Below are positions 1,115-31,501 of a DNA stretch of 64,000 nt, one piece after another; the stretch's first letter is position 1, and each line of letters opens with the position of its first letter. The stretch is taken from contig JAPOVP010000035.1 of the NCBI GenBank assembly GCA_026708085.1, forward strand, positions 1-64,000. The letters are read 5' to 3'. The translations under genes and the position numbers were made by a program. The DNA is from Caldilineaceae bacterium. Its GTDB lineage: Bacteria; Chloroflexota; Anaerolineae; Caldilineales; Caldilineaceae. A model generated the notes under the pieces. The model did not search any database. It was not told the origin of the DNA and saw only the letters and a program-made list of their open reading frames with translations.

Positions 1115-2086
1115 CTACCCTTGCCCATCCTCAAACAGCCAGCATCTCGCAATTTGACCCTCCGCCGGTTCAAAGGCCGGCGGGCTTTCCTGTGCGCACG
1201 GCTCAAAAACCAAAGGGCAGCGCGGGTGGAAACGGCAACCCGCAGGCGGCTCGCGCAGGTCCGGCGGGGCACCGGGGATGAACTGCGGCAGCGTGTCACC
1301 GTGAAGCCGGGGAATGCTGGCCAGAAGCCGTTGCGTATAGGGGTGGGTGGGGTGCAGCAGCACCTGATCCGCGCTGCCAATCTCGACGATCTCTCCAGCG
1401 TAGACCACAGCCAGATCGTCGCACACATCGCTCGCCAGGGCGATGTCGTGGGTGATAAAGATGATGGCCAGGTTCATATCCTGCTTCAGCCTTTTGAGCA
1501 GGTTGGTGATCTGGGTCTGAACGCTGGCGTCCAGGGCCGAAGTGGGTTCATCCATGATGACCACGGGCGGCTCCAGGATCAGGGCGGCCGCGATCATGGC
1601 GCGCTGCTTCATGCCGCCGCTGAGTTCATGCGGATAGCGGTCATATACATCTGCGGGCAGCCCTACATAGGCCAGCAGTTCCAGGGCGCGGGCGATCGCC
1701 TCCTGTTTGGCGACGGTTCCGCCCACCATCAGCGGTTCGATGATCTGCTCCCCTACGCGCAGGACTGGGTTAAGGCCGTTCTGCGCGCCCTGGGGAACCA
1801 GGGACAGCTTCTGCCAGCGAATCTCCTGCCGAAACCGGTCGTCGGTCATGCCGAGAAGCTCCTGCCCGTTCAACCAGATTTCGCCGTCATAGCGGGCCAC
1901 GTTTGTGGGCAGCATGCGCATGATGGCGAGGGCGAGCGAGGATTTGCCGCTGCCCGATTCACCCACCAGACCTAGGGCAGAGCCGCCGCGCGCGAGGGAA
2001 AAGGAGACGTTGTCCACCGCGCGCACGGCGCCGGCCCGGTCGGCATAGTGGAAGGTGAGATCGCGGACGTCAAGGAGCGATGTCAT
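1115..2086 (-). CDS. Peptide ABC transporter ATP-binding protein (DppD/OppD type)
   Basis: 323 residues, normal length for the DppD/OppD family. Visible elements: Walker A GESGSGKSS near residue 42, ABC signature LSGGMKQRAMIAAAL, Walker B VVIMDEPTSALD, and the H-loop ITHDIALASDVC. The C-terminal oligopeptide-transporter extension has the Cys-containing segment PAGCRFHPRCPL, an iron-sulfur-like Cys set typical of this subfamily. It energises uptake of peptides or related solutes together with the DppF-like ATPase at 10.3-11.3 kb. Its start overlaps the stop of the upstream permease (ATGA), so it is the last gene of the operon. The substrate cannot be read from the ATPase. Confidence 0.93.
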   Translation of the reverse strand: MTSLLDVRDLTFHYADRAGAVRAVDNVSFSLARGGSALGLVGESGSGKSSLALAIMRMLPTNVARYDGEIWLNGQELLGMTDDRFRQEIRWQKLSLVPQGAQNGLNPVLRVGEQIIEPLMVGGTVAKQEAIARALELLAYVGLPADVYDRYPHELSGGMKQRAMIAAALILEPPVVIMDEPTSALDASVQTQITNLLKRLKQDMNLAIIFITHDIALASDVCDDLAVVYAGEIVEIGSADQVLLHPTHPYTQRLLASIPRLHGDTLPQFIPGAPPDLREPPAGCRFHPRCPLVFEPCAQESPPAFEPAEGQIARCWLFEDGQG

Positions 2087-3519
2087 GGCGGCGACCGCCT
2101 CAGCCGCGGGTTCACCACCGGTTCAATTCCCAATCCAAGCAGCATGAAGGTGAGGGCGGTAATGACGATGCAGAGACCGGGAGGCACGATCCACCACCAG
2201 TAGCCAAGATAGATGCCGCCGGTGCGGAAGCCGGCCTCGAGTATCTGTCCCCAGGTGGGGATGGAGGGATCGCCGAGGCCGAGAAAGCTGAGGCCTGCTT
2301 CGGACAAGATCGCGGCGGGGGCGCCGAAGATGAGTTGAGCGAAGACGTAAGGGGTGATCTGGGGCAGGATGTGGCGGAACATCACCCGCCGCCGCGACGC
2401 GCCCAAGCTCTGAATGGCTTCGACCAACTGGTTGGTGCGCACGTGGAGGACCATACTGCGAATCTGGATGGTCAGGCCCGGCCAACCGAAGATGACGAGG
2501 ATGAAGATGATCATCCACAGGCTTGGGCCGACGATGAAAAGCATGAAGATGAGCAGCGGCAGCACAGGCACGTTGGCGACGATATCGGAGATGCGCTGGA
2601 TCGTGATGTCGGCCCGTCCGCCCAGATATCCGCTGGCAATGCCCAGCGACGTGCCGATCGCAGTGGACATCAGGGCCGAGATGATGCCGATAAAGAGCGC
2701 TACGGGTACCCCGAACAGCAGACCCCGGGCCAGGTCTCTGCCCAGACTGTCGGTACCCATCAGGCCGTACACCGCGCCGCCCACGACGAAGCGCACTTTC
2801 CCCACACTGTCGCCCTCATCCCGCATTGCAGCTTGGACGATGATCTCGTAGTCGCCGGTCAGGGGCGCGAAAGCTTCCTCAGAGTCGCCGGTGGGGACGC
2901 CAAAGAGGAAACGGTCTACGCGTCCGCCGATCTGCGCGCCGTCCAGCCGCAGATCAAACTCGTCGGCAAGGAAATTCTGCACCGCGGTCACGGTTGCTTC
3001 GTCGGTACTCAGCTGCACCCGCAGCGGCGTTTGCCCATAGCGCAGGAACGGTCCGCTCTCACCTTCACGGGGCCCTCGCACCGTGTGGCGGTATATGCGC
3101 AGCTGTTTGCCGTCCGGCCGTTTGAGCGAGATCAGCACCAGGGGCGGCCGTTCTGCGTATTTGACGTCGGCGAGGGTGACGGCCAGGAAGGTCGGAGGAT
3201 GGGAAGCGGCATAGGTCAGGGGGAAACGCCAGCTATGGACCGGCCCGCTGCGAGCCATCTGCTCAGTGTGCGGCTCCGTACCCTCGAAGACGCGGTGGGG
3301 TGGCCGGGCCTCCCGGCGAAATGAGTTAGTCCAGGCCGGCGGCACCGCTTTAGGGTTGTCCACCCAGACAATGGGGCTGCTCCACTGGCTCTCGCCGAAA
3401 TCCAGTGGAAATACGAGCAACACATAGAGAGCCACCACGATCAGCAGGCCCAACAGGCTGACGCCGCCGAAGCCCGGCCCGCTGCGCAGAAGCTCACGCA
3501 AGGCGTTGGCCCTGTTCAC
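2083..3519 (-). CDS. Peptide ABC transporter permease (DppC type) with large external domain
   Basis: 478 residues against about 300 for ordinary DppC. One N-terminal membrane segment is followed by a roughly 200-residue non-membrane insert. Then comes the canonical core starting at LMGTDSLGRDLARGL, with about five more helices. The EAA-type cytoplasmic loop reads VEAIQSLGASRRRVMFRHILP, the contact site for the ATPases. The insert lies after the first helix and so should face outside, where it could dock the tethered binding protein (inference). It overlaps the downstream dppD-like gene by four bases and follows the dppB-like gene by 73 bases. Confidence 0.9.
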   Translation of the reverse strand: MNRANALRELLRSGPGFGGVSLLGLLIVVALYVLLVFPLDFGESQWSSPIVWVDNPKAVPPAWTNSFRREARPPHRVFEGTEPHTEQMARSGPVHSWRFPLTYAASHPPTFLAVTLADVKYAERPPLVLISLKRPDGKQLRIYRHTVRGPREGESGPFLRYGQTPLRVQLSTDEATVTAVQNFLADEFDLRLDGAQIGGRVDRFLFGVPTGDSEEAFAPLTGDYEIIVQAAMRDEGDSVGKVRFVVGGAVYGLMGTDSLGRDLARGLLFGVPVALFIGIISALMSTAIGTSLGIASGYLGGRADITIQRISDIVANVPVLPLLIFMLFIVGPSLWMIIFILVIFGWPGLTIQIRSMVLHVRTNQLVEAIQSLGASRRRVMFRHILPQITPYVFAQLIFGAPAAILSEAGLSFLGLGDPSIPTWGQILEAGFRTGGIYLGYWWWIVPPGLCIVITALTFMLLGLGIEPVVNPRLRRSPP

Positions 3520-3592: not shown

Positions 3593-4648
3593 TCAGTCTG
3601 TGTACCTCACACGAGGATCGAGAAAGACGTAGAGCACTTCCAGTACGATGCGGATGAGGACATACATCAGAGTAAAGATGAAGGTGAGGGCAACGATGAC
3701 GTTTTCATCGGGCGTGCCAGCGAGGGCATCGTAGTAGAGCCGGCCCATGCCCTGCCAGTTAAAGACAGTCTCCACCAGAATCGAGCCTGACAGCGATCCT
3801 GCCAGGCCGAACAGGAGGCCGGTGACGATCGGCGGGGCGGCCACGCGCAGAATGTGGCGGAGGCGAACCCGGCTTTCGGGCAGACCCTTGGCGCGGGCGA
3901 TCTTGACGTGGTCCTCCTGGGCTATGTTGAGTGTGATGGTGCGAATCGAGTAGATCGCCGGCCCAAAGCTGACGAGAACCAGGGTAATCACCGGCAGCAG
4001 AGCATGTGAGACAAGGTCGAAGAAGCGGGGAAGAGGCTCTGTAGGCGGCGGCGTGCTGTACATGCCGCCGGAAGGAAGGATTCGCAGCTGGATGGAGAGA
4101 ATGAGTATGAACAGGATGCCGATCCACCAGGTGGGAATGGCATAGGAAACGGCCGCAAACCCGGAGACAAAACGGTCCAGCCAGGAGCCCTGGCGGGTGG
4201 CAAGATAGGAGCCGCCGGTGATGCCGATGATGGCGGTGATGAGAAACGATGTGGTGAGCAGGAGCATGGAGTTGGGCACGCGCTCGGTCACGATATCGAA
4301 GACACGATTGCTGCCGTCGAAGCTGCGCAGCGAGCGAGCTTCGCCCAGGTCGAGGGTCAACACCCGCAACGCGGTGCGCGGGAGGCGGTAGTACCAGGGC
4401 GTGCGCAACCCATAGAAGATCTCCAGCTCCTCGCGGCGCTTCTCCAGCACCTTTTCCATCTCGTCGGGGTCGCGGATGGTCTCGGCCAGCGCGGTGCGCT
4501 CGGCGCGCAGCTGCTCTCCTATGGTTGCAGCAAGAATGCGGTCGGAAAAGCCGGTCAGGCCCAGCGTCAACACCAGCATGAGCAGAACGACGAAGAAAAC
4601 CCCGACCATGGTGAGGGAACGGACGAGGAGGGGACGAAAAAGTGACAT
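3593..4648 (-). CDS. Peptide ABC transporter permease (DppB type)
   Basis: 351 residues. The first helix (LLVRSLTMVGVFFVVLLMLV) is followed by a longer than usual polar segment with RAERTALAETIRDPDEMEKV, then five further helices. The EAA loop reads HVKIARAKGLPESRVRLRHI, typical of DppB/OppB. With the DppC-like protein it forms the membrane channel of the peptide transporter. Both permeases in this operon carry enlarged external regions, which suggests an unusual docking surface (inference). The gene follows the binding-protein gene after a 100-base spacer holding heptamer-like repeats and an inverted repeat. Confidence 0.92.
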   Translation of the reverse strand: MSLFRPLLVRSLTMVGVFFVVLLMLVLTLGLTGFSDRILAATIGEQLRAERTALAETIRDPDEMEKVLEKRREELEIFYGLRTPWYYRLPRTALRVLTLDLGEARSLRSFDGSNRVFDIVTERVPNSMLLLTTSFLITAIIGITGGSYLATRQGSWLDRFVSGFAAVSYAIPTWWIGILFILILSIQLRILPSGGMYSTPPPTEPLPRFFDLVSHALLPVITLVLVSFGPAIYSIRTITLNIAQEDHVKIARAKGLPESRVRLRHILRVAAPPIVTGLLFGLAGSLSGSILVETVFNWQGMGRLYYDALAGTPDENVIVALTFIFTLMYVLIRIVLEVLYVFLDPRVRYTD

Positions 4649-4748: not shown

Positions 4749-7538
4749 TTAACGCCTGCGGCGCACGAAAAGAATGCCGCCAAAGATGATAATAGCGACC
4801 ACGACGCCGACAACTACGTTGACGGGCAGACCGGCGGCCGGCTCGGATTCAGCTTCTGCAGACTCGGCCTCTTCAGATTCAGACGCAGTGCTCTCCGATT
4901 CGGCTTCCGTATCCGATTCTGAGGCGGTCTCTGTATCGGATTCCGTATCGGACTCTGCTGTGTCGGACTCCGCTTCAGTTTCCGCCGCCGTCTCGGATTC
5001 ACTCTCTTCCTCGTCGGCTGCGGCCTCGGACGACTCTTCATCCGAGTCGGAAGATGAAGCTTCCTCTGTTTCGGAGGATTCTGATTCCTCCGCTGCCGGT
5101 TCCTCTTCGATGATGGCGATATCGGCTTCCAGCTCGATGCGCCGCTCCGCCATGCGGGCCAGCTCATCGCTGTAGGCAACCAGCACCAGTTCGTAGATCC
5201 CCAGATCCAGCTCGTCCGTGGTCTCAGCAGTCAACCTGATCGCAAACCAGTTGGGGTCCAGCGTATCGGCGTCGCCCTGCTGGATGATCTCCCCGGTGGC
5301 GGTGTCGATCAGCAGATAGCGGAGGGAGAGATTGCCAGGCCCATCCAGCGTCAAGGTAACTTCATAGTCGGCGCCCAACTCGATCGGCGGCGCCTCGATC
5401 TCGGTATATTCGATCAGGTCCGGCAGCCCGCGGTAGAGATCGCTGGCCGTGAAGGGGTAGTTCTCGTCACGGAAGGCGGCCAGCTCGGCGAATTGGGCCG
5501 GTGGATCATAACGCTCCAACGTAAAGGGGCCGTTGCTGATAACCATGTGGCCTTTCTCGTCGAACCAGTCGAGCACCGCCGTGTAACGTTCCACACCCTC
5601 CTCGCTGTTGGTGAGAACCGTTTCACCGTCCGCTGTGGGCAGGGTGAACACGTCTATGGGGATGGCCTCTGCACGGCGCAGATCCAGCATGGCCTTGCGC
5701 ACGAGGCGGGCATCCCGGTCCAGCACAAGGCTGATCCATGGCACGTTGTAGCGGGCGGCAGCCGTGTCGCTAAACGCAGCCCGCCGCTGGCCGAATACCA
5801 GCTCATCCATCGCGTACAGCATCTCCCAGGGGGTACTCAACCCTGAGGGGACACCGTAGGAGGCGATGTAGTTCTGTTCAAAATGCCAGAAGTCCACATA
5901 GGCTTCGATGCGATTTTCGTCCAGCACGCGGTAGCCCTTGATCGTTTCCAGGAAGGGGCGCGCGGTTGTGGCGATGACCGTTTCGATCTTGGCTTTATCG
6001 GGATTGTAGGACAGGTCGAAGCCCTGATAGATAGAATAGAGCACATCGGCCATGCTGATCGGCTGGCCATGATGCCACGGGGCCTGGAAGAATTTGCTGT
6101 AATCGTAGACGACCTTGCTGGTGGCGGTCACCTCTTCCCCCACGTTCGACCACCGGCCCCGTTGCGCGTTCCACATGATGGCGTCCGCCGGTACATCCAA
6201 CGTGCCGTCCGGTCCGGCCGTCTCAACCTCATAGTCGATACGGAAGGGCGCCGGGATCCCGGTGAACGGGTCATTCCAAATGGCCGGATCCTGCAGATGC
6301 CGCCAGATGTCGCTGCTGTAGACATCGCCGAATCCGCCGACCGGGTTCCAGGTCGTGCGTTCGGTCCACACCCATAGGTGGCCCACGGTCAGTTCGTCGC
6401 TGCCCGTCTTATAGGCCGAACGCAGGCTCCACAGGCCGCGCGGCCCCGCGGCCAGGTCTTGGGTTATGCCCTCGACACCGGCCTGCACTGGGAAAGCGTT
6501 CATGACGGTGGCGATCCAAATGCGGACCGACTCGTCAAGGCCGATGCGGGTCATTTCGCGATACATGTCGTCGCGCTCAGCCTGGTCGGCGAACTCACCC
6601 TTGAAGAGGCGCTCGCCCAGATCGTCCAGCTCATCATTTTCGTAGTGCCAGAAGCCGACCTCTTTCCAGCCGGGCATGTTCCCCAGCCAGGGGGCATAGA
6701 AGGAGTTGATGCCGCCGAAATCATAGCGGTTGGGCGAACCGCGGCCCCAGCCTTCGGTGTACAGATGCCATTCAAACTGGGCCGGGTCGGTGGCATAGAC
6801 GGTCTGGATGGCAGGCGCGAAGGTCTGACGATTGGAGGCGACCGCGAACCCGGCGTCCTGCAGGGCCGATCGAATCAGATCGCCTACGTCGCGCCGCTCG
6901 TCCTCCACGCGCATGATGAACTTCAGGCGGACCGGCTGCTCGTTGAAATGCCACACATCGTCAACCAACTCTGCGCCGGCCTTGGTCATGGCATCGGCGA
7001 TCAGTTGGCGTGCGTATTCGGGATCGTAGTCCAAATCCGCCTGTTGAATCACGTCGAAGACGGTCAGATAATCGTAATCGGTGGAGGCCACGTTGGTGTA
7101 CATCGGACTCGCCTGGCCCTGGTAGATCTCCCGGGTTACAAACTCGCGGTCGATCAGGCGCTGCATGGCCTGCCGCACTTCCTTGATCGAAAAGGGGTTC
7201 AACCTTCCTTCCGGCGCCGGCGCCGGATTGAGGATCAACGAAATCGTGCTGGCCGGCGCCTCAAAGAGTTGGATGCCCTCGTTGTCGCGCAGCTCACGGG
7301 CCGCGGCAATCTTCAGATTGAAGTAGTAGAGGTCCATCTCCCCAGCTTCCAGATCCAGCGGCGCGCGGTCAACGTTGAACGCTTTGAAATAGAGCCGCTC
7401 GACCGCCGGCCCGGGTTCCTCATGAGGAGGGCTGTATTGGGCCAGGGCCGAGGAGGAGAGACCGATTATGATCGCCAGGCTGATCGGGACGACTTTGAGC
7501 AGCCACGCTGGAACTTTTGTCGACCTAGTCGTATTCAT
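4749..7538 (-). CDS. Membrane-tethered family 5 (peptide) substrate-binding protein, permuted block order
   Basis: 929 residues from the ATG at 7538, chosen because AAAGGA lies just upstream and a signal peptide follows (PISLAIIIGLSSSALAQ). Family 5 hallmarks are present but rearranged. The alpha/beta lobe with LEAGEMDLYYF, NPFSIKEVRQAMQRLIDRE and DYDPEYARQLI comes first (about 45-370). The part that normally starts the protein, with WHHGQPISMADVLYSI and SNGPFTLERYDPP, comes second (about 383-715). A beta-rich domain (715-805), an acidic Glu/Ser/Thr stalk (about 809-903) and a C-terminal helix ending RRRR follow. The protein is thus tethered to the membrane on a flexible stalk. It sits between a BNR-domain gene and the DppB-like permease. 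Ligand unknown. Confidence 0.88.
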   Translation of the reverse strand: MNTTRSTKVPAWLLKVVPISLAIIIGLSSSALAQYSPPHEEPGPAVERLYFKAFNVDRAPLDLEAGEMDLYYFNLKIAAARELRDNEGIQLFEAPASTISLILNPAPAPEGRLNPFSIKEVRQAMQRLIDREFVTREIYQGQASPMYTNVASTDYDYLTVFDVIQQADLDYDPEYARQLIADAMTKAGAELVDDVWHFNEQPVRLKFIMRVEDERRDVGDLIRSALQDAGFAVASNRQTFAPAIQTVYATDPAQFEWHLYTEGWGRGSPNRYDFGGINSFYAPWLGNMPGWKEVGFWHYENDELDDLGERLFKGEFADQAERDDMYREMTRIGLDESVRIWIATVMNAFPVQAGVEGITQDLAAGPRGLWSLRSAYKTGSDELTVGHLWVWTERTTWNPVGGFGDVYSSDIWRHLQDPAIWNDPFTGIPAPFRIDYEVETAGPDGTLDVPADAIMWNAQRGRWSNVGEEVTATSKVVYDYSKFFQAPWHHGQPISMADVLYSIYQGFDLSYNPDKAKIETVIATTARPFLETIKGYRVLDENRIEAYVDFWHFEQNYIASYGVPSGLSTPWEMLYAMDELVFGQRRAAFSDTAAARYNVPWISLVLDRDARLVRKAMLDLRRAEAIPIDVFTLPTADGETVLTNSEEGVERYTAVLDWFDEKGHMVISNGPFTLERYDPPAQFAELAAFRDENYPFTASDLYRGLPDLIEYTEIEAPPIELGADYEVTLTLDGPGNLSLRYLLIDTATGEIIQQGDADTLDPNWFAIRLTAETTDELDLGIYELVLVAYSDELARMAERRIELEADIAIIEEEPAAEESESSETEEASSSDSDEESSEAAADEEESESETAAETEAESDTAESDTESDTETASESDTEAESESTASESEEAESAEAESEPAAGLPVNVVVGVVVAIIIFGGILFVRRRR

Positions 7539-7653: not shown

Positions 7654-10035
7654 TTATCCAGTTCGTCTACGGAACGAAACCCACAGCAGGCCGAGCGCGA
7701 TGCCGATACCGACGCCGCCGACCACCGGCCAAGTCGCGCTCCCGCCGGGTACGGCGGATGTGGAGAGTGCCGTCGTTGCGGGCACACTCTCCACCGCGAC
7801 CTGGTGCGAAGCAGGCGACAGACCGGCTTGCGATGCCGTTCCGTTCAACTGTTCCAACTTCTCATCCAGGGCATCCAGCTTCTTTTCCAGATCCTGGACA
7901 TTGTCGAAGCCGAACTCCATATAGAATGATGTGGAGGCGAAGTTGCCCGATTCGTCGACCAACACCACCCGGTGGGCGCCTTCACCGGAGATGGGAACGA
8001 AGATCTGTTGTGTATAACGCCCGAGCTTGTCGGTACGGCCGGATGCGGCGTTGGCGCCACCGACAAGCAGGTAGATATCCATATCCGGTTGGAAACCGTG
8101 CCCCTGAACGGTGATGGTCTCGCCGGCAGCCCCGGCGTCGGGGCTGATGAAGATTTCCGGGCGGGCGATGGCGCGCTGGCGGCTGAAACCGATCTTCTGG
8201 TTGGTGGGGCCAAACTCACCAAGCCGGGTATCGGCCCATACCAGATAGGCATCGTTCTCACTGGCAGCGATGGCGAAATAGTCGCCCAGGAACAGCCCTC
8301 TGGGAAAACCTTTATTGGGATTGGAAGGGAAGTCGGTCACGCGCGTGTCGCCTACTTTGAGGTCGAGTTCTTCCAGTTCGAATCCCCAGGTCTCGCCCTG
8401 ATCTTCGGAACGGGTGTAGTAGATATGGTAACGGGTCCGGACGGGGTCGTCGCGCATATCCCCCCACATGAGATGGATGACGCCATCCGGCCCGACGTCC
8501 ATGGCCGGGAAGAACTGAACGGCGTCGGTCTCATCGGTGTTGATGCGTACGGGCCGCGACCAGCGGTCCCCGCCGTTGAGTGAGCGGATGAAGTAAACGT
8601 CGCCCTCGTCGAGCGGATTTTCCGCGGGCAGCGCGACATAGGTTACATAGAGTTCATCTTCAGGCCCTACCGATACTTTGGGGAAGGCGGACGCCCAATA
8701 GCGGAAGTAGGCGTTACGGGGTCGGAACCCCGGCTCAAGGAACCGGGCGATACGTTTCGGTTCACCGAAGGTTTCGCCGCCATCATCAGACTTGGACATA
8801 TAGAATTCGGCGAGGCCTTTCATGCTCTCGTCGTCGGTGCTGTCAATCCAGGTTACATAGAGAGTGCCTTTGGAATCAACGACGGGGAAGGGTCCCTGCA
8901 CGACCCGCTTGGTGCCGATGGCGTTCGATTGACCTTCGGTGTCGTCGATCTCGCCATAAGTGCGCTTTACGGTCGGGCCGACCGGGACAGGATCGGACCA
9001 GGTCAGACCCTGGTCGAGCGAGTAGGCCAGCATGGGCGTGGTCTGTACTTCAGGCGCGCCCAGGGTTGGGAGCTCGCCGATGTAAAGGATGTCGTAGATG
9101 GTGTTAAATTCGACAAAAGTGACATAGACCACCGTCTGGTCTTCGATCGTGGGATGGGGGCCTGTGGTCATCCATGGTTTGTCGAGAAAGCTGAGGCTTA
9201 CTGTGCCGCGTATGCGGCCGGTTGGGTCAAGCACGGCGTCGCTTTCGACATCGCTGCGGGCGCTGTCGACGGGTTCCTCCCAGACGAAGCCGCCGTCTTT
9301 CGATGTCGAAACGGCGATCGAGGAGACGAGGGCAAAGCCGGTGGCGTTACCTACAGAGTACTCTTTGATGCCGATCGAGATCGAAGCCATGTAGACATTG
9401 CCGTCGCTATCGAACTCGACCACCGGGTCACCGCCGGAGATCCGGTCTTTGCGCAGGTATTTGATCTGCTGCGGCCCCTCCCAATTCACGCCGCCATCGA
9501 TGCTGACGTAGGCCGAATTGTTGGGGAAGTTGTAATCGATCAAACCCAAAACAAGGTGGTCGGGATCGTGCGGGTTGACGGCGATATCCGGCTCGGTCTG
9601 TAAGGGGACGTTGCTGAAATCTCGGGTCACCAGCAGGTCGCGGCTGAACGCGGGCGCCGGATCGCGGTAGGGCACGAGGATGCCCGGCCCCGCCGACTGC
9701 AGCAGCGGTGTATCTCCTTCACTGCCTGGCAGGCTGCTGAGATTCTGGCGGTCGAGCGTGTTCCAGCCCGGCCGGTCGAGGAAAATCCGATTGTCCACAC
9801 CCTGGGCGATGAGCCATGCAGGCCCGGAGAGCACGTCCTGGATTGGATTCATGGCATCCAGGATATCGGCCGGGTTCTTGCTGATTTTGCCGCGTGTCGG
9901 CAGTTGCGGCACCGGCATCTGCGCCGCTGCCGGCAGCGGCATTGCCAGCAGGCCTACGACCAGGAGCAGTAAAGGAATTCGCAGGCCCAACCGGAGGCCG
10001 TTGCCAGGCCGTTTGAATTTGTGCAAACTATCCAT
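7654..10035 (-). CDS. Secreted BNR/sialidase-like propeller protein with C-terminal anchor
   Basis: 793 residues. A signal peptide (LLLLVVGLLAMPLPAAAQ) is followed by a long beta-propeller region with repeated Asp-box-like turns (SIDGGVNWEGP, SKDGGFVWEEP, SLDQGLTWSDP, SDDGGETFGEP, SLNGGDRWSRP, SEDQGETWGF). An IPT/TIG-like beta-sandwich (around AAGETITVQGHGFQPD) comes next, then a short coiled coil (NVQDLEKKLDALDEKLEQL) and a C-terminal helix with RRRTG. No catalytic sialidase residues could be assigned with confidence. It lies inside the transporter operon, 115 bases before the binding protein, and shares that protein's anchor design. It may be a surface scaffold or glycan-binding partner of the transporter (inference). 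Confidence 0.8.
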   Translation of the reverse strand: MDSLHKFKRPGNGLRLGLRIPLLLLVVGLLAMPLPAAAQMPVPQLPTRGKISKNPADILDAMNPIQDVLSGPAWLIAQGVDNRIFLDRPGWNTLDRQNLSSLPGSEGDTPLLQSAGPGILVPYRDPAPAFSRDLLVTRDFSNVPLQTEPDIAVNPHDPDHLVLGLIDYNFPNNSAYVSIDGGVNWEGPQQIKYLRKDRISGGDPVVEFDSDGNVYMASISIGIKEYSVGNATGFALVSSIAVSTSKDGGFVWEEPVDSARSDVESDAVLDPTGRIRGTVSLSFLDKPWMTTGPHPTIEDQTVVYVTFVEFNTIYDILYIGELPTLGAPEVQTTPMLAYSLDQGLTWSDPVPVGPTVKRTYGEIDDTEGQSNAIGTKRVVQGPFPVVDSKGTLYVTWIDSTDDESMKGLAEFYMSKSDDGGETFGEPKRIARFLEPGFRPRNAYFRYWASAFPKVSVGPEDELYVTYVALPAENPLDEGDVYFIRSLNGGDRWSRPVRINTDETDAVQFFPAMDVGPDGVIHLMWGDMRDDPVRTRYHIYYTRSEDQGETWGFELEELDLKVGDTRVTDFPSNPNKGFPRGLFLGDYFAIAASENDAYLVWADTRLGEFGPTNQKIGFSRQRAIARPEIFISPDAGAAGETITVQGHGFQPDMDIYLLVGGANAASGRTDKLGRYTQQIFVPISGEGAHRVVLVDESGNFASTSFYMEFGFDNVQDLEKKLDALDEKLEQLNGTASQAGLSPASHQVAVESVPATTALSTSAVPGGSATWPVVGGVGIGIALGLLWVSFRRRTG

Positions 10036-10239: not shown

Positions 10240-10266
10240 ATTATAATAGCAAAAATGCGTTCTCAA
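10240..10266 (-). promoter_or_regulatory. Possible internal promoter ahead of the BNR gene
   Basis: On the minus strand TTGAGA (10261-10266) and TATAAT (10240-10245) are separated by 15 bases. They lie at the end of the dppF-like gene, about 200 bases upstream of the BNR gene. The spacing is shorter than ideal. This would let BNR and downstream genes be transcribed apart from dppF. Confidence 0.35.
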
Positions 10267-11288
10267 TTTTGGTAAGCGTCAATCCCTTCATGCAGGAAAC
10301 AGGCCACAAAGTGATTCGGCTCGACTTCACGGAGTCGCGGCGTAGTCAATTCACAGCGGCCGGCCATGAAGGAAGCGCAGCGGGGGTGAAAGGAACATCC
10401 GCTTGGCGCATCGACGGGGCTGGGCGGTTCGCCAGGAAGGCTGGGCCGCTGGTGCAGCCGGTTGGCCGGGTCCGGTTCCGGCACGGCGGCGATGAGAGCC
10501 TGAGTATAAGGGTGCATAGGATTGCGCACCACATCTGCCGCCTCTCCCATCTCGACGACGCAGCCCAAATACATGACGACGATCCGCTGGGCAAAATGGC
10601 GGGCCGTGGCGATATCGTGGGTGATGTACAGGAAAGCGATGTTGAACCGCTTCTGCAACTCGCGCAGCAGCGCCAGTAACTCTGCCCGGCTGGAGGCGTC
10701 AACCATTGAGACCGGTTCGTCGGCGACGATGAACTGGGGCTGCAGGACGAGCGCGCGTGCGATGCTCAGCCGCTGTCGTTGACCACCGGACAGCAGGTCG
10801 GGGTACTTGCCTGCGATCTCCTGGGCCGGGCGCAGCCGTACATCGTGCAGGGCTTGAAACACTCGCTCTCGTCGCTCGCTGTCGCTGCCGATGCCGTGAA
10901 TCACCAGGGGTTCGGCCACGCTCTCATAAGCCGTCATATACGGATCTATACTTGCGAACGGATCCTGAAAGATGGCGGCAGCCCGGCGGCGGAACGCTTT
11001 TTGTTCCTTCTGCGATAAGGCGCTTATTGCCGTATTGTCAAAGCTGACATGGCCTTCCGTAACCCTGATCAGGCCCAACGCCGCCCGTCCCAAGGTGGTC
11101 TTGCCGCTGCCGGACTCGCCTACGACAGCGACGACCTCGCCTGCCCCGATGTCCAGCGTCACGCCGTCCACAGCATGGACCGACTCGCTGCCAAAGAGAC
11201 CTTTGCGAACACTGAAATGCACTTTGACATCGTGGAGTTGGACAAGCGGCTGGGACGAAGGCCTTTGGGGAAAGGATTCCATTGCCAT
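10263..11288 (-). CDS. Peptide ABC transporter ATP-binding protein (DppF/OppF type)
   Basis: 341 residues from the ATG at 11288; an ATG two codons later is an alternative. The track ORF extends a further 117 codons upstream through Arg/Cys-rich non-homologous sequence and is rejected. Visible: Walker A GESGSGKTT, Q-loop IFQDPFASIDPYMT typical of OppF/DppF, signature LSGGQRQRLSIARAL, Walker B FIVADEPVSMVDAS, and the C-terminal CSFHPRCASF Cys segment. It is the second ATPase of the peptide transporter and the likely first gene of the minus-strand operon. It is divergent from the TPR lipoprotein gene. The shared intergenic region contains the palindrome TGAGTATACTCA, a candidate operator only. 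Confidence 0.93.
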   Translation of the reverse strand: MAMESFPQRPSSQPLVQLHDVKVHFSVRKGLFGSESVHAVDGVTLDIGAGEVVAVVGESGSGKTTLGRAALGLIRVTEGHVSFDNTAISALSQKEQKAFRRRAAAIFQDPFASIDPYMTAYESVAEPLVIHGIGSDSERRERVFQALHDVRLRPAQEIAGKYPDLLSGGQRQRLSIARALVLQPQFIVADEPVSMVDASSRAELLALLRELQKRFNIAFLYITHDIATARHFAQRIVVMYLGCVVEMGEAADVVRNPMHPYTQALIAAVPEPDPANRLHQRPSLPGEPPSPVDAPSGCSFHPRCASFMAGRCELTTPRLREVEPNHFVACFLHEGIDAYQN

Positions 11289-11492
11289 ATTCAACAGAAA
11301 TATTCGCCATGATGCGACATGTCCTTGAGTATACTCATCCGCTGTCAAGTGCGCAAAGATACGGGCAGCATCCGGCCTGCAAGACGCCTTGTCCTGTCGA
11401 AAGTCGATGAGTGAGTGAAGAGGAGTAGGGAGCGAGAACAGGTTCTCATTGCTCACGTTTTCGTATCCCCTCCTCAGATGGGAGGATCCCCG

Positions 11493-13733
11493 ATGAATGA
11501 CCATGATCGAATGCCGCGATACACGATGGTTCTCTTGCTGTTGGCCGTGCTTGCCCTCATTCTGGCAGCCTGCCAAGCGCCGGCCAGTCAACCCAGGACA
11601 GCAACGCGAACAGCGCCTGCGGCTTCGACGCCCACACATACGCCGACGCCAATCGTCATTCCCTCGCCATCGCCGGGGCCGACGCCTACTGCTACGCCCG
11701 AGCCGCTGGCCGAGCCTGATAGAGACCTGGCGGAATCACTGAGCGCCAAGGGGAAGTCGCTGTTTGGCACCAGCGACCTGAGCGGCGCCGAAGCGGCCTA
11801 TATCGATGCGATTGCCGCCGACCCCAGTTATCTCCCCGCGCATCTGGGCCTGACCGATGTCTACCTCTACCAGTCGCAGTACTGGCAGCAGGCGCTGCAA
11901 TCGGCCGAGAACGCGACGTCACTGGCGCCGGAGGACAGCACCGCCATCGCATACCTGGCGTGGGCAAAACAGGGGGCCCACCATTTTGACGAGGCGAAGG
12001 AGTTGGGTCTGCGAGCGGTGGAGTTGGACGACGAAAACCCGACCGCACACACGGCTCTGGCCGACATCCTTGTCAGCATGTATGAGGTCGACAGAGCCTA
12101 TGAACACGCCCAGACCGCGGTGCGTCTGAATCCGGATTCGGCGGCAGGATGGGCGACGCTGGGATCGATCGCGTTCCAGATGCACGATTGGGACAGAGCG
12201 GGAGAGGCGTACGAACGCGCACTGAAACTGGAGCCGGATTTCTTTGCCTGGCATATAATCAACGCCCGCCATGAGTTTAATGTGTATGGCGATATCTATG
12301 CGGCGCGGTCGATTGCGAAACGCGCGATTGAGCTTGTGGCGAACCATGCCTCGACTCTCTTCTTTGAGGCCGACATGGCGGCAGAGGAAGGCGACTGGGA
12401 GACGAGTGAGGCGAAGTGTATGCAGACGATCGCGCTGGACCAGCCGCATACGCCGTTCCCGGATGCGTACAGCTGCATGGCGCTGATGTTGCTGCAGCAG
12501 GAACGGAATGCGGAGACGGCGGCGTATCAGACGCTGGCTGAGGAGCGGGCTACGGTGCACCGGCGGGACGTGACTCTGATCCGGATGCGGCTGCTCAACG
12601 ATAAGGAACTTTGCTCCGATTCGCGGGCACTGGCCGAGGACTGGCTGGAAGCGCGGCCCTACAGCATTTCGGCGATGCGGATGGTGGGCGTGAGCTATCT
12701 CTGTGAGAGAGATTTCACCACGGCCGCTACTTATTTCCGAAAGACGCTTGACGCGCTGCCGCAATCGGTGAGCGATGCGCGGCTGCTGGCAATCGCCTAT
12801 GCCCGCGATGGAAAGGCGCTGGAGGCGCGGGCGGCGTTAAATGAAGTCCGCGCCATCTCAATCGATGATCCACTCTATTACCAGGCCCTGTATGAGACAC
12901 ATCTGATGCTGGGCGAGGTGGAAGAGGCGGTGCTCGCGGCCCAGCGGTGGGATGTGCTGCGGCCGGAGAGCCTGGATGCGCGCGAGAGTCTGGCCTTTGT
13001 GCAGCTGTACGAGGGCAATGTAGAGGCGGCGCAGAGTATTGCCCTGGACGCGTTGGAACGCGGCGCACGCACGTCGACGGTGCTAGCCGTTCTGGGCGAG
13101 ACCTACACGCGCATGGGTGAATTCGATAAAGCGCAGCCGCTGTTGGAAGAGGCAATTGAACTGAACAGCGACCACATCGTGGCGCGTCAGGCGCTGGCGC
13201 TGCTGTTCCTGGCGCAGGTGCGATGTCAGGAGGCGGAACCACACCTGAACTGGCTGATCGGCGAGGCCGACGATGAGGAAGAGAAGGAAGACCTGGCGGG
13301 CGTGCTGGAGCGTTGCCGGGATAGAGCGGCGCAACCTACGCCGGACCCATCGATGCAGCTTGAAAACGATGAGGCCATTTCCACCGCTGTGGCGATACTG
13401 CAGGAGGCGGACGTAGAGATCCGCTATCTCGACGTGGAGGAGAATGAAGAGGGGCAGCGGACGCTGGTCGTGGCCTACGCCGTCGATTTAGCGGTTGACG
13501 GGGAGGAGTACGCCGACCTGGAGCGTCAACTGATCTTTGAACTGTCCCGTATCCTGCCCCGCATGACCTCCGAACCGGACGGCCTTGTGGTCGTCGCCGG
13601 CACCTTCAACAGGACAACTTCCGCAACCCTGGTGGCAACGAGGGCGGCGGAGGTGTGGCTCCAGGGACAGTTGACCGACGAGGAATTTGAAAACACCTGG
13701 CGACGCCAGGTGGTAGAAGCCTCTGACGAGTAG
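11493..13733 (+). CDS. TPR-repeat lipoprotein
   Basis: 747 residues from the ATG at 11493, chosen for the strong GGGAGGA six bases upstream. The lipoprotein signal LLLAVLALILAAC gives acylation at the Cys, then a Pro/Thr-rich linker (THTPTPIVIPSPSPGPTPTA). At least nine to ten tetratricopeptide units follow, for example AYIDAIAADPSYLPAHLGLTD, ALQSAENATSLAPEDSTAI and AYERALKLEPDFFAWHI. A C-terminal alpha/beta domain of about 120 residues has no TPRs. It should be tethered outside the membrane as a protein-protein scaffold. It is divergent from the peptide transporter operon and may assist it (inference). The partner is unknown. Confidence 0.85.
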   Translation: MNDHDRMPRYTMVLLLLAVLALILAACQAPASQPRTATRTAPAASTPTHTPTPIVIPSPSPGPTPTATPEPLAEPDRDLAESLSAKGKSLFGTSDLSGAEAAYIDAIAADPSYLPAHLGLTDVYLYQSQYWQQALQSAENATSLAPEDSTAIAYLAWAKQGAHHFDEAKELGLRAVELDDENPTAHTALADILVSMYEVDRAYEHAQTAVRLNPDSAAGWATLGSIAFQMHDWDRAGEAYERALKLEPDFFAWHIINARHEFNVYGDIYAARSIAKRAIELVANHASTLFFEADMAAEEGDWETSEAKCMQTIALDQPHTPFPDAYSCMALMLLQQERNAETAAYQTLAEERATVHRRDVTLIRMRLLNDKELCSDSRALAEDWLEARPYSISAMRMVGVSYLCERDFTTAATYFRKTLDALPQSVSDARLLAIAYARDGKALEARAALNEVRAISIDDPLYYQALYETHLMLGEVEEAVLAAQRWDVLRPESLDARESLAFVQLYEGNVEAAQSIALDALERGARTSTVLAVLGETYTRMGEFDKAQPLLEEAIELNSDHIVARQALALLFLAQVRCQEAEPHLNWLIGEADDEEEKEDLAGVLERCRDRAAQPTPDPSMQLENDEAISTAVAILQEADVEIRYLDVEENEEGQRTLVVAYAVDLAVDGEEYADLERQLIFELSRILPRMTSEPDGLVVVAGTFNRTTSATLVATRAAEVWLQGQLTDEEFENTWRRQVVEASDE

Positions 13734-13816: not shown

Positions 13817-14710
13817 TTATTGACCACAGCAATCGAGACCGAGGGCTACGACCTTGTCGGCCAGTTTGGCGTGCTCCTCGGCGGTGAGGGACTCGCCGGG
13901 CGGGCGCGGGTCGCCGCAGTCGATGCCGAGGCGTTGACCGAGTACGGCCTTGATGGCGCCGTGGAACTTGAAGGGCACGCTCAGCGCTTCGGCGGCGGAG
14001 GATGCCTTCTCCTGGGCCTTGCTGGCTGCCGGGATGTCGCCGGCCTCGTAGGCGCGCCAGATGGCGACCCAGAGTTCGGGGGCCATGTTGGGCGGGCCGT
14101 CAACGCAGCCGGTGGCGCCGATCAGTAGCGCGGGCAGGAAGAGGCGAGAGTTCCCGATCAGACAGGAGAGACCCATTTCGGCAAAGGTCTTGACGTAGGG
14201 GATGTAGGGCGCGGAATGTTTGAGCCCGGCCAGTTGGGGGACGCGCTCCTGGATCTTGGCCATGAGATCCGGCGTGATTTCGACTCCGGTGGCCCCGGGG
14301 AGGTTATAGACAAAGAACGGGAGGTCGGCGGCGGCCGCGACGATGCGATAGTGTTCGACGATGCCCCTGTCACTCTGGCCATAGAAGAAGGGCGGGACAC
14401 AGCAGATGGCTTCGCAACCGGCCTTGGCCGCGTGTTCGGCGAGGCGGGCGGAGCGGGCGGTGGTGGGGGCGCCGACGTGCATGATGTTGGCAATGCGCCC
14501 CTGATTCTGGTCGGAGGCAATCTCGGCGATGCGGCAGTTTTCGGCGTCGTCCAGGAGGACGCTTTCCCCCGTGCCGCCGGCCACCCAGAAACCGTGTACG
14601 CCGGCCTGGATGTTGAACTCCATTACTTGGCGAAAGGCGTCCTCGTTGAGGCGACCCTCAGCGGTCATAGGCGTGATGATAGCCGGGAAAATCCCATTGA
14701 AGCTTTTCAT
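13817..14710 (-). CDS. DapA/NanA-superfamily aldolase or lyase
   Basis: 297 residues, full family length. Family landmarks: FPAIITPMTAEGRLNEDAF at the N terminus, the carboxylate-binding GGTGES motif, the Tyr of FFVYNLPGATG, and the Schiff-base Lys in LAGLKHSA. These place it in the dihydrodipicolinate synthase/N-acetylneuraminate lyase superfamily, which makes or cleaves pyruvate-derived aldol products. Beside an MR/MLE enzyme and a P-loop protein, a catabolic aldolase (for example of 2-keto-3-deoxy sugar acids) is more likely than lysine synthesis; this is inference. It lies 156 bases downstream of the MR/MLE gene on the same strand. Confidence 0.88.
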   Translation of the reverse strand: MKSFNGIFPAIITPMTAEGRLNEDAFRQVMEFNIQAGVHGFWVAGGTGESVLLDDAENCRIAEIASDQNQGRIANIMHVGAPTTARSARLAEHAAKAGCEAICCVPPFFYGQSDRGIVEHYRIVAAAADLPFFVYNLPGATGVEITPDLMAKIQERVPQLAGLKHSAPYIPYVKTFAEMGLSCLIGNSRLFLPALLIGATGCVDGPPNMAPELWVAIWRAYEAGDIPAASKAQEKASSAAEALSVPFKFHGAIKAVLGQRLGIDCGDPRPPGESLTAEEHAKLADKVVALGLDCCGQ

Positions 14711-14865
14711 GTGACACTCTCTTGTGGCTGTGACGGAGTCTTTGAGCCGTCATTATCGCACGGATGGGTGCAGGTGTCGACAGCGCAGAAATGTGCCCGG
14801 GGGTGATTGACGGCGGGGCGGAGGATGGGGGAGCTGCGGCGGGGAGAACGTTGACCTGCTGGCGC

Positions 14866-15993
14866 TTATGGCTTTTCCTTCAACCGCACGTCCCGCAGCC
14901 GGTCGGCGTCAATCTCTACCTGGGCCAGCCCACTCACGTCCAGGTAGCCGTCGCGAAGCGTGAGCGGCCGGGTCAGCAGGTCCTCCTGCAGCTTGAGGAA
15001 AAAGCTCAACTCGCACGGAAGGTCGATCCCGGGCCTGGCGGCAAAGTACGCGGCGAGCACCGTCCCCCAACCGGTGCTGGCCTGGGAACCGACCATCACC
15101 GCCTTGCCGCCAACCAGGGCCTGATTCAGCATCTGCGCCGATTCGGTAAATCCCGTGCGCGCCGTCTTGATGTTGAGGATGTGAAAGGTGTCCATGCTCA
15201 ACTCCCGGCGCAGGTCGCGGGCGCTGAACACGCTGTCGTCGGCGATGAGTTGGGGGAGGGCAGAGTCGCCGGCGCGCGCGCAGGCTTTGCGCATCGCGGC
15301 GCGGGCCAGAATCAGCTCCACCGGCAACGGTTCCTCGCAGTAAAGTACGTTGAACTCGGCCATCTTTTCCAGACGCTGGCGCACGTTTTGCGGCTGGAAG
15401 CACTCATTGGCGTCAACGTACAGATCGACCTGCTCCCCGAACTGCTCCCGCAGGAGGCGCAGTCGTTGTAGATCCGTGCTCCAATCCTGGCCGACCTTTA
15501 CCTTCAGTACGCGCACGCCCTGCGCCACTATCCGCTTGGCCTCAGCCAGGCTGTCATCGATTTCGCCCAAGCCCAGAATATAACTCACCCGCACCTGAGC
15601 GCTGCTGGCGCCCAGGTGGTCGTAGAGAGTACGGTTGCGGCTGCTGGCAAGAGCATGGTGGAGGGCCATATCGAGGGCGCCGCGGGCGGTCTGGTTGTTC
15701 TTGACGGTCTGCAGGCTTGCGTAGAGCTTCGACAGTGTGGAGTCGTCAAGCATCTCGCCCTCGAGGCGGGGCGCCAGCTCCTGGCGAACGACGCTGCAGA
15801 TGCTGGACACGGTCTCCCCGTAGATCGTGGGACGGGGCGGCGCTTCGCCCCAGCCAACGGCCCCGTCGCTCAGCCGTACCTGGATCAGGACGTGATAGGC
15901 CTCCTGCATTTCGCTGGCCGCGCCCCAGCGCAGCGGTTCCCGCAGCGGAAGGCAGAATGGGATCGGTTCGATGGCTTCGATGGTGGTAGGCAT
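14866..15993 (-). CDS. Mandelate racemase/muconate lactonizing enzyme family protein
   Basis: 375 residues with the enolase-superfamily layout: N-terminal capping domain and C-terminal barrel. The catalytic KxK is seen in RVLKVKVGQDW. Metal ligands are suggested by VDANECF, CEEPLPV and IADDSVFS, and the second Lys by HILNIKTARTGFT. A Lys on both sides is typical of the MLE subgroup (muconate cycloisomerase, o-succinylbenzoate synthase, dipeptide epimerase). It abstracts a proton alpha to a carboxylate using Mg2+. The neighbouring peptide transporter fits a dipeptide epimerase and the neighbouring aldolase fits sugar-acid chemistry; the sequence does not decide. It starts 15 bases after the P-loop gene, with no clear ribosome-binding site. 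Confidence 0.88.
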   Translation of the reverse strand: MPTTIEAIEPIPFCLPLREPLRWGAASEMQEAYHVLIQVRLSDGAVGWGEAPPRPTIYGETVSSICSVVRQELAPRLEGEMLDDSTLSKLYASLQTVKNNQTARGALDMALHHALASSRNRTLYDHLGASSAQVRVSYILGLGEIDDSLAEAKRIVAQGVRVLKVKVGQDWSTDLQRLRLLREQFGEQVDLYVDANECFQPQNVRQRLEKMAEFNVLYCEEPLPVELILARAAMRKACARAGDSALPQLIADDSVFSARDLRRELSMDTFHILNIKTARTGFTESAQMLNQALVGGKAVMVGSQASTGWGTVLAAYFAARPGIDLPCELSFFLKLQEDLLTRPLTLRDGYLDVSGLAQVEIDADRLRDVRLKEKP

Positions 15994-27383: not shown

Positions 27384-29174
27384 ATGTCGGAACAACAGCC
27401 ATTCGGGAGGTCGGCCAATCCTGAGGCCCATGGAGCGTCCCAGACGCCTCGATTGCCCACGACCCCGCGTTCCGGTTATCTGCCGGGGCCGGTTGCACCT
27501 CCGGCGACGCCGGCGCCCCTGGGGCGGTATATTCGCTGGCAGATGTTGCTGGCCGTCATGGGAATCATCCTCCTGACGCTTCTGATGGGCGTCACCGCTT
27601 ACAACGTCTCCACGGTTCTGGTTCCGGAGCGGGGCGGCGTCTTTCGTGAAGGCGTTGCCGGCAATCCCCAGTACATCAATCCACTGTTGTGCCACACACA
27701 CGATATCGACCGCGATCTGTGCAGCCTCCTCTTCCGCGGCCTGACCCGACTCGACCAGCAGGGAAGGGTGGTGCCGGACCTGGCCGAGCGCTGGACTGCC
27801 CCGGATGGGCTGGCATACACCTTTACCTTGCGTGAAAACCAGTACTGGCACGACGGCAAACCGGTGACCATCGATGATGTACTGTTTACGATCGAGATGT
27901 TGCAGAGCCCGGATTCACCGATCCTGCCCGACCTGGCGGAGTTGTGGCGTTCGGTCACGGTAGAGCCGGTCGACGAATACACAGTACGCCTTCTGCTGGA
28001 CGAACCCTTTGCCCCGTTCCTCGACTTCACGACGGTGGGACTGCTGCCCAAACATATCTGGCAGGACGTGTCCCCGTCTGAGCTGCTCACGAGCCCGCTC
28101 AATGCGCGCCCGGTCGGCAACGGCCCGATGCAGGCGACGTTGACATCGGCGCAGTTCATACGCCTGGAGCGCAGTCCATTTTCCAATGATGACATTCCCA
28201 TGGTCTCGGCTCTTGAGTTCCATTTCTATCCCGACTATCCTTCAATATACGCCGCCTACGCTGAAGGTGAATTGGATGGTGTGAGCCAGGTATTGCCGGC
28301 GGACATTTCACTGGCACAGGAACGTACCGATTTGCAGCTCTTTTCCGCGCCGCTATCGACCTATGTCGGTGTGATCTTTAACCTGCAGAATCCGGATGTC
28401 CCCTTTTTGCAGGATGCAAACGTACGCCGTGGGCTCTATCACGCCCTGGACCGCGAGCGGCTTCTCGATGATGTGGTCGGCGGGCATGGTGTACTCGCAT
28501 CTTCTCCCATTCCGTCGAACAACTGGGGGCACGCGGCGGATACACCCTCATATGATTATGACCCGGGTGAAGCGCAACGTCTTCTGAATGAGAGCGGTTG
28601 GGTCGACACGGACGGCGACGGCACGCGCGACAAAGACGGGCTGCCCATGCAGCTCGTCCTGCTCACGAACGACGGGCCAACCCGCATCGCGCTAATCGAA
28701 CAGATCGCGGCGGACTGGCAGGCCGTGGGTGTCAAAGTCGTCGTGGAGAGCGTCAGCTTCACCGGATTCGTAACCGATTTCCTGACGCCGCGGCGCTTTG
28801 AAGCCGCGCTTCTCAGTTGGGATATCTCAGGCGACCCCGATCCCTTTCCCCTCTATCACAGCAGCCAGGTCGGTACGGGCCAAAACTACGGCGGATGGTC
28901 CAATGAGGACGCGGATGCCTTGATGATCGAGGCCAGAAGCACGGTGGACCCGGAGAAACGCAAGTCACTCTATGCCGTGTTTCAGCATGTCTTTGCCGAC
29001 GACGTACCGGCGATCCCTCTGTATTACCCTGTTTATACCTACGGCGTCAGCGAGCGCGTCAAAGCGGTCCAGATTGGGCCGTTGAACACGCCGGCCGACC
29101 GATTCGCTACGTTCCCCGACTGGTATATCCTCACCCGCCGCGTCCCCGCGAATCAACAGTTGAGTGGAAACTAA
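27384..29174 (+). CDS. Membrane-anchored family 5 peptide-binding protein
   Basis: 596 residues with a Pro-rich cytoplasmic N terminus of about 50 residues and one uncleaved helix (MLLAVMGIILLTLLMGVTAY). The family 5 blocks then follow in canonical order: NPQYINPLL, YWHDGKPVTIDDVLFTIEML, VGNGPMQAT, YAEGELDGVSQ, ANVRRGLYHALDRERLLDD and YDYDPGEAQRLL. It should bind peptides or similar solutes outside while tethered through its N terminus. No permease or ATPase is adjacent, so it may feed a transporter elsewhere or act as a sensor. The start ATG has no clear ribosome-binding site and directly follows a hairpin. It is a useful in-window control for the permuted protein at 4.7-7.5 kb. Confidence 0.88.
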   Translation: MSEQQPFGRSANPEAHGASQTPRLPTTPRSGYLPGPVAPPATPAPLGRYIRWQMLLAVMGIILLTLLMGVTAYNVSTVLVPERGGVFREGVAGNPQYINPLLCHTHDIDRDLCSLLFRGLTRLDQQGRVVPDLAERWTAPDGLAYTFTLRENQYWHDGKPVTIDDVLFTIEMLQSPDSPILPDLAELWRSVTVEPVDEYTVRLLLDEPFAPFLDFTTVGLLPKHIWQDVSPSELLTSPLNARPVGNGPMQATLTSAQFIRLERSPFSNDDIPMVSALEFHFYPDYPSIYAAYAEGELDGVSQVLPADISLAQERTDLQLFSAPLSTYVGVIFNLQNPDVPFLQDANVRRGLYHALDRERLLDDVVGGHGVLASSPIPSNNWGHAADTPSYDYDPGEAQRLLNESGWVDTDGDGTRDKDGLPMQLVLLTNDGPTRIALIEQIAADWQAVGVKVVVESVSFTGFVTDFLTPRRFEAALLSWDISGDPDPFPLYHSSQVGTGQNYGGWSNEDADALMIEARSTVDPEKRKSLYAVFQHVFADDVPAIPLYYPVYTYGVSERVKAVQIGPLNTPADRFATFPDWYILTRRVPANQQLSGN

Positions 29175-30424: not shown

Positions 30425-31501
30425 TCAGTCCGGAATCCGGTATGAACTGGCCTGGATGCAGGTAACGCCCTCGCTATCCTGACCATAGTAAGCGGTACAT
30501 ATCGAGCCGTCAGGCCGCTGGACCGAGGTCGGATAGCCAAGGTCTCCGTTAGAGAAGTCGTCCCGGAGGATCAGCTCGTTATCGATATCCCAACTCGCGC
30601 CCTCGTCGTTGCTCAGACAGGCGCGAATCCCGAAAGGCGCCCAGCGACAGCCGTAGGTGCACAGCAGGCGGCCGTCCTGCAGGCGCAGCATATGGGGCGG
30701 CAGGCCGCGCATCGGCGTCGATTGCGCACGGCTCCAGGTGCGCCCGCCGTCGTCCGAGTGACACTGGTAGAGATGATAGTTGCCCTCTTCATGCGTGCGC
30801 AGCATCGCCAGCACACGTCCGCCCGGCAGCGCAAGCAGGGCGGGTTCGAAGAAGCCGATCCTGTCATCGACCGCGATCAGGCGGGCGCCGCGCCAGGTGC
30901 GGCCCTGGTCGTAGGAGGGCACGACAAATGAGGGGCACGGGACCTGGCTCTCGTCGTAACATGGCAGCAGCAGGCTTCCGTCTTCCAGTTCGGCGATCGA
31001 TCGCAGCGTGTACCCAGAAACAAAGGGAGAGACATTGACGCGGGCGCTTCCGTCCCACGTGCGCCCGCCATCTTCGGAGCGATGGACATAGGTACCTTCC
31101 GCCACCGGAAAAGAGCCGGCCCAGGCAAACGCCTCGTCCCGTCTATATCGTGCGCAAGCCGGGTCAGCGTCGGCTGCGTCCAGCGAGACAAAGCTGTTAC
31201 GCGCTGTGTTGACCAGCAGCACACCGCTGGAGAGCTGCACCATGCCGGGGTCGTCCATGCCGGCGAAGTCGTAACCGGCGATCACCTGCGGCCCGTGCCA
31301 GCTCTGGCCGCCGTCCCTGGAGCGCAGCAGCATGTTGAGCAGACTCGGGTCGAGATGCGTGATGACGGGGCGGCGCATCGCCTCGCAGAAGGCCAGCACC
31401 CACTCCCCGTCCTGCAGGATCTTGATATCCGGCCAGGCGCAGTAGGCGTGGGGGTTCTTGTAGATGAGTTGGTGCGTCAGGTCCGGTGGGCGCAAGGGCA
31501 T
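30425..31501 (-). CDS. Sialidase/BNR-repeat family protein
   Basis: 358 residues without a signal peptide. Five Asp-box turns (S-x-D-x-G-x-x-W) mark a six-bladed propeller: SRDGGQSW, SEDGGRTW, SYDQGRTW, SDDGGRTW and SNDEGASW. An Arg of FCEAMRRPVITH could belong to the substrate carboxylate-binding triad, but I cannot assign all catalytic residues. Such cytoplasmic family members in sugar-degrading bacteria hydrolyse or bind glycosides; sialic acid specificity is not shown. It stands alone on the minus strand, convergent with the tRNA genes and 36 bases downstream of the radical SAM gene. Confidence 0.8.
   Translation of the reverse strand: MPLRPPDLTHQLIYKNPHAYCAWPDIKILQDGEWVLAFCEAMRRPVITHLDPSLLNMLLRSRDGGQSWHGPQVIAGYDFAGMDDPGMVQLSSGVLLVNTARNSFVSLDAADADPACARYRRDEAFAWAGSFPVAEGTYVHRSEDGGRTWDGSARVNVSPFVSGYTLRSIAELEDGSLLLPCYDESQVPCPSFVVPSYDQGRTWRGARLIAVDDRIGFFEPALLALPGGRVLAMLRTHEEGNYHLYQCHSDDGGRTWSRAQSTPMRGLPPHMLRLQDGRLLCTYGCRWAPFGIRACLSNDEGASWDIDNELILRDDFSNGDLGYPTSVQRPDGSICTAYYGQDSEGVTCIQASSYRIPD

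Follow-up and report, generated by a model that had tools for sequence, protein, structure and literature searches.

Engineered permutants and permuted halves of solute-binding proteins (SBPs) are well known. In nature, circular permutation is rare, and it tends to be viewed as a single frozen event. Among the described systems closest to the protein reported here (P0001), DppA/OppA and the Pfam model SBP_bac_5 (PF00496) represent a homologous domain with the same types of permease and ATPase, but one that is smaller and has the canonical order of parts. The closest solved relative is 7fi3, a dipeptide/oligopeptide ABC SBP of 732 aa, an archaeal OppA of Thermococcus. It shares an enlarged cluster C domain and inserted regions with the P0001 family and is collinear with it over 575 profile positions once the family is rotated, but it keeps the canonical order, whereas in the permuted family the parts are swapped and a C-terminal beta domain is usually added. 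A circularly permuted ABC-importer SBP has been described in Treponema, where TpMglB-2 (Tp0684), a tethered glucose-binding lipoprotein conserved in a family, was shown to bind its ligand and close, and where the authors suggested the permutation to be an adaptation to tethering (PMC4990184). The P0001 family resembles TpMglB-2 as a conserved family of tethered, predicted natural circular permutants of an ABC-importer SBP. However, TpMglB-2 is a Type I/cluster B protein in which the last ~100 residues have moved and the ligand is a sugar, whereas the P0001 family belongs to cluster C (family 5), is cut elsewhere, comes from another lineage and has more than one cut point. P0001 showed no homology to Type I/cluster B proteins or MglB; the SBP models and structures that it matched were all of family 5/cluster C. 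Permuted SBPs are thus already known from another fold class, and for cluster C no precedent was found in the open-licence literature.

The window analyzed here is a stretch of 64,000 nucleotides, in which P0001 is encoded by an intact ORF of 929 aa on the minus strand, from an ATG at 7538 to a stop at 4749. Its features, with the basis of each assignment in parentheses, are as follows.

4749..7538, minus strand: predicted circularly permuted cluster C solute-binding protein, type A, CP1 register (PDB, Pfam and rotation alignments)
7437..7538, minus strand: export signal, residues 1-34, without lipobox (sequence)
6399..7412, minus strand: residues 43-380, the canonical second part (profile 241-537), now first (native profile alignment, Pfam)
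6348..6458, minus strand: residues 361-397, former C terminus joined to former N terminus (best rotation at residues 355-455)
5424..6401, minus strand: residues 380-705, the canonical first part (profile 1-248), now second (native profile alignment, 7fi3 match)
5121..5426, minus strand: residues 705-806, a small all-beta (Ig-like) domain that extends the new C terminus (predicted structure)
4842..5105, minus strand: residues 812-899, low-complexity linker rich in Ser, Glu, Asp and Thr (sequence)
4764..4832, minus strand: residues 903-925, C-terminal transmembrane anchor with RRRR after it (sequence)

The initial annotation had claimed that family motifs are swapped in this protein relative to the canonical member at 27384-29174 (P0002), and every motif was located where it had placed it. 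In P0002 the motifs start at residues 156 (HDGKPVTIDDV), 246 (NGPMQAT), 293 (AEGELDG), 346 (NVRRGLYHALDRE) and 392 (YDPGEAQRLL). The first half of P0001 carries LEAGEMDLYYF at 63, EVRQAMQRLIDRE at 120 and DYDPEYARQLI at 170, followed in the second half by WNPVGGFGDVYSSDIW at 397, HHGQPISMADV at 489 and NGPFTLERYDP at 669; this swapped order is well beyond chance.

The homology of P0001 to SBP_bac_5 lies above the curated cut-off (90.1 bits versus 32.4), residues 44-274 matching profile positions 146-356 (E 2e-25) and the other half giving a weak match to positions 28-77. A phmmer search of PDB sequences returned 7fi3_A as the best match by far (E 2.6e-43) with its blocks swapped, query 396-703 aligning to chain 22-317 and query 110-301 to chain 399-601, and a profile of seven relatives gave the same swap against 7fi3 (194 bits). 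When the sequences were rotated to residues 380-705 followed by 43-380, the rotated profile yielded one alignment with 7fi3 (profile 17-591 to chain 22-615, 258.8 bits, E 7.9e-76). When a profile of 55 diverse permuted members was compared with one of 31 canonical SBPs from the window genome, the native order produced separate pieces (1-342 to canonical 241-537 and 271-680 to canonical 1-248), and the rotated order a single global alignment over 473 columns (E 1.6e-41). The rotation point was also scanned without a preset cut using the profile-profile local score, which reached a plateau of 233 only for cuts at residues 355-455, the expected place of the canonical termini, against 167 for the native order and 118 for the worst cut. 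Since the scan peaks at the expected termini and the rotated alignments are collinear, the two halves of P0001 appear to be one domain, rotated. P0001 has no complete cluster C domain in canonical order; every part is present but rotated, and we assign it to cluster C/SBP_bac_5 as a predicted member by homology, not by topology. Residues 45-370 would not make up a complete independent domain, as they cover only SBP_bac_5 146-356 and positions 241-537 of the 537 in our own canonical profile, and no profile alignment was collinear over the full length without rotating the sequence. Thus both halves are homologous to one protein in swapped order, and rotation gives one collinear alignment with the cut at the former termini, so that the cluster C domain of P0001 is, as predicted from sequence, a natural circular permutant; the permutation proposed in the initial annotation is borne out at this level. 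The AlphaFold2 model of the core was poor (pLDDT 38) because its alignment contained only near-identical sequences (15 homologs, 88% identical), and it was excluded from the fold search. The Ig-like domain was predicted as beta strands (pLDDT 75.6), and a fold search with it against the PDB gave nothing below E 0.001.

The window genome encodes a second permuted paralog that is 32% identical to P0001. Orthologs of P0001 with 83-98% identity are present in 15 further genomes from the genus, among them three single-contig chromosomes, with gene, order and neighbors kept throughout. A profile search of 396 genomes sampled from the class gave matches in 114, most of them full-length in CP1 order, and ten genomes from other classes of the phylum matched as well, so that a diverged, collinear permuted family is spread over many genera. 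The scan covered the phylum, the PDB, plasmids and viral contigs: no close relatives in canonical order were found in the 400-genome sample of the phylum, viral contigs held no relatives of the permuted SBP, and plasmids gave only partial matches to SBPs, none spanning the permuted protein. Pfam picks up only part of the permuted proteins, and NCBIfam has no match for the paralog or for the CP2 (see below) and fusion members; the importer family that the permutation defines spans the phylum and escapes standard annotation. The family tree shows two subfamilies, type A, which includes the window gene, and type B. Because both have the CP1 order, the permutation, an old one, predates their split. 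In type B proteins a lipobox and linker are found at the N terminus, and several type A proteins including P0001 have instead a C-terminal helix that follows the Ig-like domain and a linker that is acidic or of low complexity; both subfamilies share one cut site, and the added C-terminal beta domain occurs in most permuted relatives. One type B protein (L147, 5512-8406, minus strand) has an insertion of ~90 residues in mid-domain, and split matches resembling it were seen in G364, G095 and G245.

A second cut point (CP2) was found in five genes of one branch in four genomes, all drafts. The 755-aa CP2 protein of G737:C19 (L138) has its own lipobox signal, followed by family positions 242-752, then 76-229 and the stop, and its collinear relatives in G753 (two), G767 and G768 are 36-46% identical. 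Family positions 80-224 correspond to DppA 208-338 in the numbering of solved structures, which puts the cut of CP1 at about residue 200-205 and that of CP2 at about 343-350. If lobe I of DppA is taken to be 1-260 and 479-507, CP1 would open lobe I and CP2 lobe II, a placement that depends on these boundaries. A single CP2 origin was ruled out, since one clade for all five genes was rejected in the AU test (p = 9e-44); L160 and L162 as one clade gave p 9e-78, and L158, L159 and L166, with p 0.62, may share one CP2 origin. Gene conversion of one segment was ruled out as the source of the CP2 scatter by the agreement of three segment trees. CP2 is not monophyletic, and there must therefore have been at least three changes between registers, whatever the direction of each. 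CP1 relatives in the clade containing CP2 lack the C-terminal beta domain, which would leave their termini free for re-joining. In addition, a protein of G957:C191 that is cut by the contig start, and that came from a separate search and not from the 400-genome sample, has family positions 683-744 followed by 77-421, with its stop exactly at the former termini and nothing further matching downstream. It groups with CP2 proteins (support 95/99) and has probably gone back to the canonical register, its N terminus lying beyond the contig start.

The operons of the G957:C191 gene and of two CP2 genes read SBP - B - C - ATPase - ATPase or its start, and the enlarged OppC-type permease is common to the operons of CP1, CP2 and the one canonical-register gene. 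Given that the partner permeases of CP2 are ~63% identical to those of CP1, versus ~24-33% when compared with the window genome's canonical Opp permeases, the partner appears unchanged by the change of register. We lean towards the reading that one SBP family exists in three cyclic orders (canonical Y-Z-X, CP1 Z-X-Y and CP2 X-Y-Z) and has switched repeatedly within one clade of small-genome relatives with operon and permeases constant, as a recurrent natural re-permutation series. Such a clade would be an evolutionary series showing the same domain opened at two or three places while the operon type stays constant, which makes testable whether the position of termini and anchor matters for SBP docking and transport.

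These comparisons also bear on the role of the anchor. From the first reading of the locus, the C-terminal tether had been proposed to alter the orientation of the lobes towards the permease, and this part finds no support in that form: the sister subfamily has the same permutation with an N-terminal lipoprotein anchor, the permease partners are of one kind in every register, and by profile coordinates the cut lies within the lobe of the canonical N terminus, given the lobe boundaries above. Since both anchor subfamilies have the permutation beside Opp-type permeases, it is not tied to a C-terminal tether. More generally, the permutation could be an adaptation to tethering, with moved termini taking anchor strain off the binding site, an idea put forward for TpMglB-2 (PMC4990184). 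We consider this unlikely, even though most family members appear anchored or exported, by a C-terminal transmembrane helix or an N-terminal lipobox, and share one cut site, because canonical SBPs encoded by the same genome likewise have anchors, the CP1 cut stays in the lobe of the canonical N terminus, and re-cutting elsewhere left the partner permeases unchanged. With constant permeases and a cut in the same lobe, the pattern looks closer to neutral drift of termini.

Much less probable still is a bipartite protein, in which two partial binding domains of different genes were fused end to end and act separately. Tandem SBP fusions do exist in bacteria, and the halves of P0001 differ in the strength of their match to canonical profiles. 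However, the halves are complementary and sum to one domain (canonical 241-537 plus 1-248, with almost no overlap), align collinearly with the single protein 7fi3 once rotated, stay together and collinear throughout the family, and recur as the same parts in other registers. An assembly chimera, a misjoined contig or a decaying pseudogene can be dismissed, for although the window genome is a draft of 193 contigs with 7.5% contamination and the gene in G020 looks split (at a run of N, hence an assembly gap and not biology), the arrangement is the same in the 15 further genus genomes, single-contig chromosomes included, dN/dS of 0.04-0.09 indicates purifying selection in both halves, and the diverged family is collinear in many genera.

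P0001 is thus very probably a membrane-tethered SBP that serves an ABC importer of the Opp/Dpp type and has a single, naturally permuted cluster C domain. The former N and C termini would be linked at residues ~361-397, where the join is a short linker without remnant signal peptide, and the chain would be newly opened in the loop after the NGPF motif, ahead of the LEAGEMDLYYF unit. Judging from tandem copies and clean junctions, a canonical gene was most likely duplicated in tandem, the copies fused in frame and the outer parts lost; adjacent tandem permuted SBP copies in two relatives (G622 and G653) fit this route. Tandem permuted SBP genes within one operon, mutually diverged, were observed at L141 (4404-9235, plus strand) and L140 (136-5700, plus strand). 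By homology and operon, the fold is most likely one two-lobed flytrap. At the cell surface it would capture a peptide-like ligand and dock on the adjoining OppB/OppC permeases, held in P0001 by the beta domain, acidic linker and C-terminal transmembrane helix and in the sister subfamily by an N-terminal lipid anchor. In the branch without the Ig-like domain, the chain would have been re-opened at other points to give CP2 and probably the canonical register.

P0001 is encoded with a BCDF transporter of the Opp/Dpp type, whose genes and upstream neighbor are listed below.

3593..4648, minus strand: partner permease, OppB/DppB type
2083..3519, minus strand: partner permease, OppC/DppC type, its permease domain preceded by a ~210-aa insert
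1115..2086, minus strand: OppD-type ATPase
10263..11639, minus strand: OppF-type ATPase of the same cluster, start codon uncertain and likely downstream of the listed one
7654..10035, minus strand: BNR-repeat (sialidase-like) exported protein with a TIG-like domain and a C-terminal hydrophobic helix

Type A operons keep the order BNR protein - SBP - permease B - permease C with insert - ATPases in other classes as well, with the BNR gene directly upstream of type A permuted SBPs; the type B operons examined lack a BNR gene. The ~210-aa OppC insert had no match in the PDB. Peptide ligands are favored because a G737 relative (L139, 3978-7205, minus strand) has a ZU5-like region and a matrixin-like metalloprotease (HEIGHTLGLDD) fused upstream of a permuted SBP, a possible candidate for a cut-and-catch peptide protein, and the Opp-type partner permeases likewise count towards a peptide. 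Sugars and nickel are also among the ligands of cluster C proteins, the peptide-contacting region of P0001 (YTEGWGRG...) differs from that of DppA, and the BNR neighbor hints at a glycan or glycopeptide. Near the transporter, DapA/N-acetylneuraminate-lyase-like, enolase-superfamily and second sialidase-like genes (window positions 13817-15993 and 30425-31501, both minus strand), named from inspection of their sequences, suggest a putative sugar-acid or sialic-acid catabolic neighborhood.
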